Made by a program: the position numbers and the translations under genes
Notes under the pieces: generated by a model
The model's input: only the letters and a program-made list of their open reading frames with translations
Told to the model about the DNA's origin: nothing
The model's database searches: none
Assembly: GCA_022824495.1 (NCBI GenBank)
Contig: JAJDZU010000003.1
Span: 1-64,000, forward strand
From: Chloroflexota bacterium
Lineage (GTDB): Bacteria > Chloroflexota > UBA11872
Length of the DNA: 64,000 nt
Reading direction: 5' to 3'
Part shown: in pieces, positions 478-3,231 of the stretch
Position numbering within the stretch: the first letter of the stretch is position 1
How the letters are laid out: each line of letters starts with the position of its first letter

Positions 478-561
478 AAGGGGCGGCCCCGGTGCGTGCA
501 GCGGGGATGATTGAGATCGGGTCGGCGAGTTCGCCGTCACAACGAAGGGGCGCCCACGTGC
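478..561 (+). repeat. 84-bp direct repeat, copy 1
   Basis: The 84-bp block recurs at 992-1075 with only two differences. Each copy ends exactly 46 bp before the ATG of a small coiled-coil/TM gene. It contains a short GC palindrome (GGGGCGGCCCC), the start of a leader ORF (ATG at 507) and a compact inverted repeat, CGGCGA-GT-TCGCCG. One of the two differences falls in the loop of that inverted repeat. It may be a conserved leader or promoter unit, or one end of a 514-bp tandem duplication. Confidence 0.85.
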
Positions 562-611
562 GAGAACAGGTCCAGAGCAGAACCGGCACAGGCTCTCGGG
601 AAAACCGATGA
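507..611 (+). CDS. 34-codon leader ORF, copy 1
   Basis: A short frame starts at ATG 507 behind a GGGG run and encodes 34 residues beginning MIEIGSASSPSQRRGAHV. Its stop (TGA 609-611) overlaps the ATG at 608 of the next gene in an ATGA junction, the usual arrangement for translational coupling. The equivalent frame in the second module (1021-1125) has the same length, the same start and the same ATGA junction, although the second halves of the peptides differ. It is rich in Ser, Arg and Gln and has no recognisable domain. It could be a real leader peptide, or simply an open frame inside a duplicated repeat. Confidence 0.4.
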   Translation: MIEIGSASSPSQRRGAHVREQVQSRTGTGSRENR

Positions 612-946
612 CGGCCGATCTGTCCGCGCTCGACATCGAGCGACGATTGACGGCGATCGAGTCCACGCTGCCGACGTTCGCGACGAGAGCGGACATTCAC
701 TCGCTGCGAACTGACATCCAGGCAATGCGGACTGAGTGGAAGTCTGACCTTGGCGAGATGCGATCGGAGTGGAAGGCCGACCTTGGCGAGATGAGAGCCG
801 AGTTTGGCGAGATGAAGGCCGAACTGCACGCGCGGGAGGCGCGGCTGATCAAGTGGATTGCAGGACTGGTGGTAGCCGGGGCGGCCGCGGCGGCCGGGGT
901 GGCTATTGCCGTAAACCAGATTCTTGCGGCCGGCGTGGGGGGCTGA
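608..946 (+). CDS. Small coiled-coil protein with C-terminal TM segment
   Basis: The 112-residue product has three parts. An N-terminal heptad region includes the segment RADIHSLRTDIQAMRTEW. Next come three repeats of the type E-W-K-x-D-L-G-E-M-R. A single hydrophobic helix at about residues 84-107 (WIAGLVVAGAAAAAGVAIAV) ends the protein. This is the architecture of small tail-anchored coiled-coil proteins that are abundant but uncharacterised in Chloroflexota-like genomes; no enzyme motif is visible. The start is ATG 608, fixed by overlap with the leader ORF stop. A second gene of the same architecture lies 514 bp downstream with a nearly identical upstream region. Function unknown; membrane-attached oligomer is an inference. 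Confidence 0.65.
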   Translation: MTADLSALDIERRLTAIESTLPTFATRADIHSLRTDIQAMRTEWKSDLGEMRSEWKADLGEMRAEFGEMKAELHAREARLIKWIAGLVVAGAAAAAGVAIAVNQILAAGVGG

Positions 947-991
947 TCGAGGCCCACGCAGGACGCGACATGGGCTGTGGAGGCGGCTTCG

Positions 992-1075
992 AAGGGGCGG
1001 CCCCGGTGCGTGCAGCGGGGATGATTGAGATCGGGTCGGCGAATTCGCCGTCACAACGAAGGGGCGCCCGCGTGC
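992..1075 (+). repeat. 84-bp direct repeat, copy 2
   Basis: This is the second copy of the 478-561 block, displaced by exactly 514 bp, with 82 of 84 positions identical. The inverted repeat here is a perfect palindrome (CGGCGAATTCGCCG). Downstream spacing to the next ATG (46 bp) is the same as in copy 1, although the intervening sequence has diverged. Confidence 0.85.
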
Positions 1076-1125
1076 AACAGCCAACTCACAGCCGAAAAAA
1101 AGCCGGCTCTCGGGGTAACAGATGA
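1021..1125 (+). CDS. 34-codon leader ORF, copy 2
   Basis: This is the counterpart of the leader at 507-611. It has 34 codons from ATG 1021, begins MIEIGSANSPSQRRGARV and ends at TGA 1123-1125, overlapping the ATG at 1122 as ATGA. The last 16 residues (from QQPTHSRKK) differ from copy 1, yet the frame stays open and the junction is kept. That is the main argument that the leader is read. No protein evidence is available. Confidence 0.4.
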   Translation: MIEIGSANSPSQRRGARVQQPTHSRKKAGSRGNR

Positions 1126-1319
1126 CATCCGACGCCGATCGGCTGGCGCGGTTGGAAGGCGCCTACGAGCACCTGGCGACGAAGGCGGACCTGAAGGCCC
1201 TGGAGTTGCGACTGACGAGCGATCTCCGAAGCCAGGAAACCCGGTTGACGGTACGGCTGATGCTGGTGGTGAGCCTTGCCACGGGTATTGTCGTGGCCGT
1301 CGACATGCTCTCGAGTTGA
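1122..1319 (+). CDS. Small coiled-coil protein with C-terminal TM segment, second copy
   Basis: The 65-residue product has the same plan as the 608-946 gene. An amphipathic heptad region (RLARLEGAYEHLATKADLKA) is followed by a single C-terminal hydrophobic segment (LMLVVSLATGIVVAVDML). Coding sequence similarity to the first copy is low, while the upstream 84 bp are 98 percent identical. The family often carries the motif ATKADLKALE, seen here, and the first copy has FATRADIHSLR at the equivalent place. Start ATG 1122 is set by the ATGA overlap with its leader ORF. It is shorter than copy 1, mainly because the internal EWKxDLGEM repeats are absent. Function unknown. Confidence 0.6.
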   Translation: MTSDADRLARLEGAYEHLATKADLKALELRLTSDLRSQETRLTVRLMLVVSLATGIVVAVDMLSS

Positions 1320-1740: not shown

Positions 1741-3231
1741 ATGCAGGCTAGCCTACCGATTCAGGAGAGTACGCCGATAGATTCAAAGCTATTGTATTTC
1801 AACGAAGGCTTCCATGTGGACCATTGGGGAAACCTTGTATGTGCCATCTACATTGATCTTCATCACCCGTCGCCCCGATCACCCATCCCTCTCTTGGTGA
1901 AAGGATGCCGCCTTGAGCACGCGATCGAGCACGGTAACAACGTAAAGATAACCACTCCTAAGGCATTCAGATGTCAAGGCGAGAATCTGATACGGGACCC
2001 AGGGGAGGGATATTTCTCAGAAACAAGAGTTTTGCATGACGCCATTGACGACCCACGCGACATGGAGAGAGCAAGGCAGCGCAATCAGGATTTGAACCGA
2101 GCTGCAGAATTGACTGGCTTCGGATGGTGTTCCAGCACGACAGGAACGCAAAGGACAGTCTCCGAAACCAACACATTGAGATACACACCTAGAGGATGGC
2201 TGTTTTGTGCCTCCATCGCACCCACAACTCCGGAAGAATGGAGTGATTGGCAAGCAACTTTGGATGACGGCTATGACCATGTATCTTACATCTACCGGCC
2301 ACGCGAGTTTGCCCGCGCGCTGGGAAGTATGGTGGCGGAGCAAATTGGAGCACAGGCGGGTATGGGTCCGATGACCTCATCCTTGCCAGGGAAAGCGTCG
2401 CACCGAACCCAACACCCGTTGCAGATCGTCTTTCATGGTCCAGTCGTATACGTGGACGATGTCGAGTCATGGCTCCTCGGAGCGAAGTCCGAGGACGAGT
2501 TGTTCCGGCGGTCAGTGTTCACCAAGGGCATGTCGCATCAAGCGCAGCGGAAATATCGCTTCATGGTTTGTGCAGATGTGGAGCCTGAGCACGATTGTCA
2601 CTTGTTACGAGCAACTCCCGCTTTGGTGGACACCATGACCGGGGATGGCAACAGTATCGGCCCTCCAGGTTTCCCGACGATGGAATCTGTCGAAGACGAC
2701 TCCGCACGGCACGACGACGTGAAGCCGAATCCGCTTGTTGGACATAGGATGTGGTTTAACCTCGTTGGTGCCATACGAGAGCAGGCAGAGCAGCCGGGTG
2801 CAATCGTACGACCACATCGGCTGGATTCTGAAACGCTGCCCAGCGACTTTCGCATTCAAACTGCCGCTTACGCAGGCGTAACGGCGTTACGAAACAAGGT
2901 GAGGGACTTTCACGAACTGATTGACGAAACAGAAGAACGCAGAAACGCCGTCACTGCCGCAGCGTGGTTCGCCGAACAGGACATCAGAACACCGTGCGAA
3001 ACCCTCGAAGACCCCATTGCCGGAATCTCAATCAGTGAAGACGGATTCATTTTAGTCCATATTTCACTCCACGAGCATCCAGAGATGGAATGCCGCCTAG
3101 CTGTCGCGCCATCGGGTCATTCGACCATAAAGATGGAAAAGGGCAGTCGCCATAGTGTCAATTTAACGCTCGAGCCGTTCTGTAGAAATAATGTCGGTGA
3201 GAAGGTCAAAGAATTTGTTGAATGCATATAA
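1741..3231 (+). CDS. Unrecognised 496-residue protein, compositionally foreign
   Basis: This is a clean 496-codon frame starting at ATG 1741. I do not recognise the family. It has no signal peptide or membrane segment and looks like a soluble mixed alpha/beta protein. Segments that look conserved in character include DHVSYIYRPREFARALG (about residue 180) and HPLQIVFHGPVVYVDDVESW (about 225). A stretch FTKGMSHQAQRKYRF near residue 260 resembles an F-x-K-(n)-Q-x-x-Y-R-F motif often found in accessory proteins. Base composition is clearly less GC-rich than neighbouring genes, and codon choice is mixed rather than G/C-ending. It sits between coiled-coil modules and methylase debris, so it probably arrived by transfer. 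A defence or anti-element role is possible but unsupported. Confidence 0.65.
   Translation: MQASLPIQESTPIDSKLLYFNEGFHVDHWGNLVCAIYIDLHHPSPRSPIPLLVKGCRLEHAIEHGNNVKITTPKAFRCQGENLIRDPGEGYFSETRVLHDAIDDPRDMERARQRNQDLNRAAELTGFGWCSSTTGTQRTVSETNTLRYTPRGWLFCASIAPTTPEEWSDWQATLDDGYDHVSYIYRPREFARALGSMVAEQIGAQAGMGPMTSSLPGKASHRTQHPLQIVFHGPVVYVDDVESWLLGAKSEDELFRRSVFTKGMSHQAQRKYRFMVCADVEPEHDCHLLRATPALVDTMTGDGNSIGPPGFPTMESVEDDSARHDDVKPNPLVGHRMWFNLVGAIREQAEQPGAIVRPHRLDSETLPSDFRIQTAAYAGVTALRNKVRDFHELIDETEERRNAVTAAAWFAEQDIRTPCETLEDPIAGISISEDGFILVHISLHEHPEMECRLAVAPSGHSTIKMEKGSRHSVNLTLEPFCRNNVGEKVKEFVECI

Follow-up and report, generated by a model that had tools for sequence, protein, structure and literature searches.

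The DNA analysed here (hereafter the window) comprises 64,000 nucleotides of a contig from a Chloroflexota bacterium, whose genome is represented by 3.37 Mb in 25 contigs. Near the beginning of the window, two neighbouring modules carry a repeated upstream element, a short leader ORF and a gene for a small coiled-coil membrane protein. Comparison of the copies in related genomes makes it fairly probable that each module is a cassette with translational coupling, controlled by a candidate regulatory RNA. The cassette has undergone tandem duplication and has spread within one genus.

Two modules in the window

The original prediction described an 84-bp repeat at an offset of 514 bp, followed in both copies by a leader ORF of equal length and an ATGA junction. 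These observations are correct. Positions 478–561 and 992–1075 are identical at 82 of 84 bases, with mismatches only at 529 and 556. At the 514-nt spacing, ungapped similarity reaches 155 nt with 83% identity, and the 22-bp core pattern has two matches in the window vs 0 across 100 shuffles. The ORFs at 507–611 and 1021–1125 each contain 34 codons and a stop, ATGA lies at 608 and 1122, and the downstream ORFs encode 112 aa in module 1 and 65 aa in module 2. The 84-bp element turned out to be mostly 5' UTR. The features of the two modules are as follows:

459–464, + strand: -10-like hexamer TAGAAT of a putative module 1 promoter (sequence and multi-copy alignment)
481–555, + strand: candidate structured 5' UTR of module 1; P1 481–485/551–555, P2 487–506, P3 521–538 (RNAalifold, 21 copies)
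507–557, + strand: N-terminal part of the leader as drawn earlier (MIEIGSASSPSQRRGAH), judged untranslated
544–550, + strand: leader Shine-Dalgarno sequence GAAGGGG of module 1, score 14 vs 9 for the module 1 main gene
558–611, + strand: leader ORF of module 1, GTG start, 17 codons (VREQVQSRTGTGSRENR), TGA at 609–611, drawn from multi-copy conservation
608–946, + strand: A-type gene, 112 aa, with a predicted short N-terminal helix, LPTFATRAD break, coiled-coil stalk and C-terminal TM helix
995–1069, + strand: candidate structured 5' UTR of module 2; P1 995–999/1065–1069, P2 1001–1020, P3 1035–1052
1058–1064, + strand: leader Shine-Dalgarno sequence GAAGGGG of module 2
1072–1125, + strand: leader ORF of module 2, GTG start, 17 codons (VQQPTHSRKKAGSRGNR), TGA stop
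1122–1319, + strand: B-type gene, 65 aa, with the LATKAD motif, a short stalk and a predicted C-terminal hydrophobic (TM) segment

In the multi-copy alignment, copies in the first position mostly carry TACAAT, TAGAAT or TAGGAT as the -10-like hexamer. The hexamer of module 2 is degenerate, and therefore this module is probably transcribed by read-through from module 1.

Some other features of the window lie outside the modules. Positions 1–154 belong to a dispersed repeat with 98–99% copies near the ends of contigs C4, C15 and C25, and the same segment gives a sub-threshold match to the Rfam family sX15 (E 0.00098). The + strand contains the hexamer GGGCGG 156 times and the − strand 18 times, and there is a strong G skew across much of the first 40 kb. 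A 496-aa ORF at 1741–3231, located in a stretch of lower GC content, has no match in Pfam, PHROGs or PADLOC.

Distribution of the element

DNA and covariance searches place the element in a single Chloroflexota genus, where 8 of 13 genomes carry 22 copies between them; the remaining 28 genomes of the class gave no hit. The genome that contains the window holds five copies, two in the window and the others on contigs C10, C21 and C3; the module 2 element scores 110.6 bits with the covariance model of this class (R1). All 22 copies in the class precede a gene of one of two types or the remnant of such a gene: type A (87–112 aa, MTADLSALDIERRL...) or type B (65 aa, MTSDPERLARLEGAYEHLATKADL...). 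The unit was thus found ahead of two distinct coiled-coil/TM gene types. For the same reason, the alternative offered earlier, a repeat inserted upstream of unrelated genes, is not supported, and the copies do not behave like a dispersed mobile repeat of the REP or MITE kind, which would be scattered independently of the gene. A phage origin was also dropped because the viral contigs searched gave zero matches to the element. Common descent and gene conversion link the copies, so the counts given here are not independent. In five copies the element is cut off from the leader or the main gene by an insert, which counts against the coupled-unit reading.

The upstream element as a candidate RNA

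Folding of 21 aligned copies with RNAalifold gave a three-way junction of the stems P1 (GGGCG/CGCCC), P2 (CCCCG...CGGGG) and P3 (CGGCN...NGCCG). All 360 of 360 pair cells are standard, and a two-sided change was found in only one of the 18 pairs (GC, UA, GU, UG). Variable columns account for 6 of 36 paired and 30 of 40 unpaired positions, with the structure derived from the same alignment. The single-sequence folding energy of the element is no better than that of shuffles. The 3' arm of P1 is located between the leader Shine-Dalgarno sequence and the start codon, so that the fold would directly gate leader initiation. In the A-type modules, the core diverges by 0.124 per site, the four-fold sites by 0.252 and the leader by 0.256. 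Since the core evolves more slowly than four-fold sites, it is either constrained or homogenised by conversion. Judging from these comparisons, a regulatory RNA role of the element is plausible.

Alternatively, the coupling may be real and the conserved 66–75 bp may be a DNA regulatory site, such as an inverted-repeat operator or an extended promoter, and not an RNA fold. P3 is near-palindromic (CGGCGAATTCGCCG in module 2), most stem columns are invariant and hence do not discriminate between the two readings, and the folding energy equals that of shuffles. However, the changes seen in the P1 and P2 stems, from G-C to G-U or from U-A to U-G, are compatible with RNA, and the element lies downstream of the -10 hexamer and ends right around the leader ribosome site. 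We consider a DNA site rather unlikely.

Three alleles (L140, L141 on the − strand, and L165) are without 66 bp between two GAAGGGGCG repeats, just upstream of the leader of a B gene. In these tandem B genes P2 and P3 are gone, and the ribosome site and the leader are kept; thus, the RNA would be dispensable in the second position. The alleles fit a deletion between the direct GAAGGGGCG repeats ahead of a second-position gene. A pseudoknot of the P2 loop (CGUG) with CACG was rejected by eye because several copies break the pairing. Among the families of Rfam release 15, none matched the element at any E value up to 5. No known Rfam element is located on the module; weak sX15 and Guanidine-II matches at 1–109 lie outside it. 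Like the cis-regulatory RNAs of Rfam, the element would act as a 5' UTR regulatory RNA over the ribosome site, and unlike them it has no family match and is confined to one genus.

A second class of 5' UTR

A second class of 5' UTR, described by the models R2 and R3, has the following layout: a -10 hexamer TACAAT or TAGAAT, GGGCGG, a hairpin, GGAGGA, CCG or CCGCCC, and ATG. R2 finds 54 copies and R3 finds 61, in 12 genomes (11 of the window's genus and one of another family of the class); none were detected in 388 other Chloroflexota genomes sampled. In at least seven families of small TM/coiled-coil genes, such a UTR immediately precedes the start codon. Among 37 matches read out, 35 end at the ATG of a small TM/coiled-coil ORF (examples are L203–L232, e.g. 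G000:C9:29592-29676, C7:87557-87643 and C16:407798-407884). Two-sided change was observed in 10 of 13 pairs, more than in any of the shuffles, on alignments that were fitted to the model. The covariation is significant on 36 and 34 distinct sequences and non-significant on 9. When the fold was predicted independently, the P3 hairpin alone was recovered.

In both classes, a GGGCGG 5' arm lies close to the start of the transcript, followed by hairpins and a ribosome site, and an arm of CCGCCC or CCG precedes the start codon. The R2 and R3 models do not detect the window elements, nor do the models of both classes detect each other, and MAFFT gave no usable alignment between the window elements and the second class. 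A common origin of the two is offered here as a hypothesis. It is possible, if somewhat doubtful, that the window element is a variant of a lineage-specific 5' UTR RNA system controlling a set of small coiled-coil membrane proteins. In that case, the window family would have gained a coupled leader ORF between the RNA and the gene. We also observed a shorter hairpin UTR, GGGCGG...GGAGCCGCCC-ATG/GTG, located 5' of an RTG start at L183, L187, L188, L189, L192 and L193. It precedes coiled-coil genes with an N-terminal TM segment (MTPELI.../MTPDII...), and its ribosome site adjoins the pairing arm.

The leader and its probable coupling to the main gene

The leader was originally drawn as a 34-codon ORF beginning with MIEIGSA, and this claim did not survive the comparison with relatives, where 16 of the 21 aligned copies have lost the frame. 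Only 5 of 21 keep both the ATG and the full frame, and the ATG507 position reads ACG or AAG in 9 of 21. Other copies contain inserts, are shifted by one base, or run into a stop at codon 9 or 12. In the core part, in-frame copies change least at the third codon position (0.139 vs 0.224 and 0.235 at the other two). Because of the broken frame and the lack of a coding signal in the MIEIGSA part, we rejected the 34-codon leader as a coding gene; by this comparison, the part at 507..557 is untranslated. The conserved leader start is GTG558 or GTG1072 rather than ATG507 or ATG1021. The short leader thus runs from GTG558 to TGA611 in module 1 and from GTG1072 to TGA1125 in module 2, in the same frame as the 34-codon ORF. 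As judged from the alignment, the leader is real but shorter than first drawn.

Nineteen copies, 16 with the element and 3 without its central part, contain a leader of exactly 17 codons that starts with GTG, TTG or ATG and overlaps the main gene at (A/T)TGA (ATGA in 18 of these full-length copies and TTGA in one). The start codon varies only in its first base and is never CTG; the sole exception to NTG is G010b, with GCG. Apart from this start, the GAAGGGG-type Shine-Dalgarno sequence and the start codon are kept across copies. Internal stops are absent from the leader frame and occur in the other two frames in 4 and 7 of the 19 copies. In G012a, G013b, G010a and G012c, indels or stops break the long frame, yet the short leader is intact, because these lesions lie upstream of the NTG start. 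An open frame of 17 codons is not rare at 66% GC, and this counts against the leader reading.

Inserts in the leader are also informative. Three copies carry inserts whose lengths (147, 147 and 189 nt) are divisible by three, and their frame is open to the ATGA; these inserts may share one insertion event. Several leaders hold repeat inserts in open frame, and in several genomes the leader is extended or replaced by repeat DNA, reaching 66–150 codons. In the repeat-made leaders of related genes, the coupled frame is open for 112–151 codons in the longest cases, and the other frames contain 1–10 stops. When shuffled, the longest of these leaders stay open in 1–4% of cases, and shorter regions do so more often. 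The leader is broken only in G009, G011e and G015, all of which have a damaged downstream A gene: it is deleted in G009 and decayed in G011e, and in G015, where the leader stop lies within a 501-nt insert, it is frameshifted and split into two frames. The 51-nt leader is free of indels unless the gene is broken, whereas the more slowly evolving core does have indels. Repeat inserts with the ends ACCTTTGCAAAAC and GTTTTGCAAAGGT and the motif CCCTCACCCCAACCCTCTCCC pile up in leaders and UTRs (L014 1595-1712, L012, L134).

It could be supposed that the modules belong to an amplified gene family in which conservation is only apparent, being due to recent ancestry and gene conversion, with no regulation involved. 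The restriction to one genus agrees with such neutral hitchhiking, as do the decayed, truncated and repeat-interrupted copies that are frequent in the gene family. However, several findings speak against neutral hitchhiking: a core that evolves at half the four-fold rate, a leader spared the indels found in that core, inserts that keep frame and openness, and a start codon varying in one base with a single exception. We regard it as quite unlikely.

The pN/pS of the leader peptide is 0.98, matching the other two frames. This comparison of synonymous and non-synonymous change gives no sign of peptide constraint, and the two-peptide cassette considered earlier is therefore unlikely. Recurring residues (S-R at 7–8, a final R-x-x-R) and the conserved start and stop could point to an active peptide, either in such a cassette or in attenuator-like nascent-peptide stalling, but with this ratio and with leaders lengthened or replaced by translated repeat DNA in several genomes, it is very improbable. 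Because the peptide drifts freely, selection appears to act on leader translation and not on the peptide.

The Shine-Dalgarno score of the leader is 10–16, mostly 14, and that of the main gene is 8–12; stand-alone relatives with the second UTR class mostly score 14. Coupling by leader initiation, termination at ATGA and re-initiation is well supported by the comparison of copies, because the start, frame, ATGA overlap and openness are kept while the peptide drifts and the Shine-Dalgarno sequence of the main gene is weaker. Translation of the leader probably switches on the main gene. Thus, the original prediction of a copied and diversified, translationally coupled unit holds as regards the start, the frame and the ATGA, which are kept even through inserts, and fails as regards the 34-codon leader.

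The coiled-coil membrane proteins

The A protein matches the Pfam CCDC90-like family with an E of 9e-4 and 19.6 bits vs a cut-off of 33.5, i.e. below it, and gives a weak match to PDB 6h9l (E 0.0037). The B protein has no Pfam match. We therefore describe the proteins only as CCDC90-like and do not file them under CCDC90/DUF1640 (PF07798). In the AlphaFold model of the A protein (pLDDT 77), helices at 2–20 and 27–109 are separated by a break at 21–26, at LPTFAT, and the long helix ends in a hydrophobic segment. A search for defence-system proteins returned just LeoC (E 0.013), and this assignment was rejected.

CCDC90 and MCUR1 (DUF1640) are membrane proteins of the coiled-coil type, built from a head, a neck, a stalk and an anchor. 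The proteins studied here may resemble them in a predicted C-terminal anchor and in ATKAD at the start of the stalk, which fits the beta-layer motif of DUF1640, [aliphatic]-A-T-K-[polar]-[DE] (PMC4786415). The motif reads LATKAD in B, FATKAD in most A copies and FATRAD in the A protein of module 1. Unlike CCDC90 and MCUR1, our proteins fall below the Pfam cut-off, are only 65–112 aa long and have a stalk that varies between copies.

Divergence of the A genes is 0.05 at codon positions 1+2 vs 0.252 at four-fold sites, which indicates that these genes are under purifying selection. The B-type gene of module 2 is 85–89% identical to copies in related genomes. Among A copies that are otherwise ~90% identical, stalk lengths differ by +7, +18, +21 and +25 residues, and every difference is a sum of heptads and hendecads. 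On this comparison, A-type stalks vary rapidly in length.

Proposed mechanism and significance

We propose that each module would work as one transcription-translation unit, in which a 5' UTR of ~75 nt is followed by a strong Shine-Dalgarno sequence, the 17-codon leader, a TGA over the ATG of the main gene, and a weaker Shine-Dalgarno sequence for that gene. Ribosomes would load at the leader, translate it, stop at the ATGA and re-initiate on the membrane-protein gene. The leader would serve as a coupling device, and the sequence of its peptide would be irrelevant. In the three-way junction of the UTR, the closing stem P1 would bridge the gap between the leader Shine-Dalgarno sequence and the start codon, and its opening or closing by a ligand, a protein, temperature or a trans RNA would set the expression of the leader and the main gene. 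The cassette has been copied in tandem and has spread within one Chloroflexota genus, with the length of the protein stalk changing.

Translationally coupled leader-peptide control is known for plasmid replication genes, namely tap-repA of R1 and repY-repZ of ColIb-P9/IncB. Those genes are regulated by antisense RNA, and in IncB/ColIb-P9 additionally by a pseudoknot. The original papers on these systems are listed among the references of PMC10724649. Like these systems, the module has a short leader ORF just before the controlled gene, a proposed RNA control of leader initiation, and a main gene that would depend on leader translation. It differs in that the gene is chromosomal and codes for a coiled-coil membrane protein, and in that leader and gene overlap directly through ATGA; neither an antisense RNA nor a pseudoknot was found here.

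The cassette offers a natural comparative experiment on translational coupling, in which the start, frame and stop overlap persist despite free drift of the peptide and tolerated repeats. It also connects a candidate regulatory RNA that has not been described before with CCDC90-like coiled-coil membrane proteins whose family is amplified in a Chloroflexota genus, and the second UTR class offers a concrete starting point for defining a regulon of these proteins.
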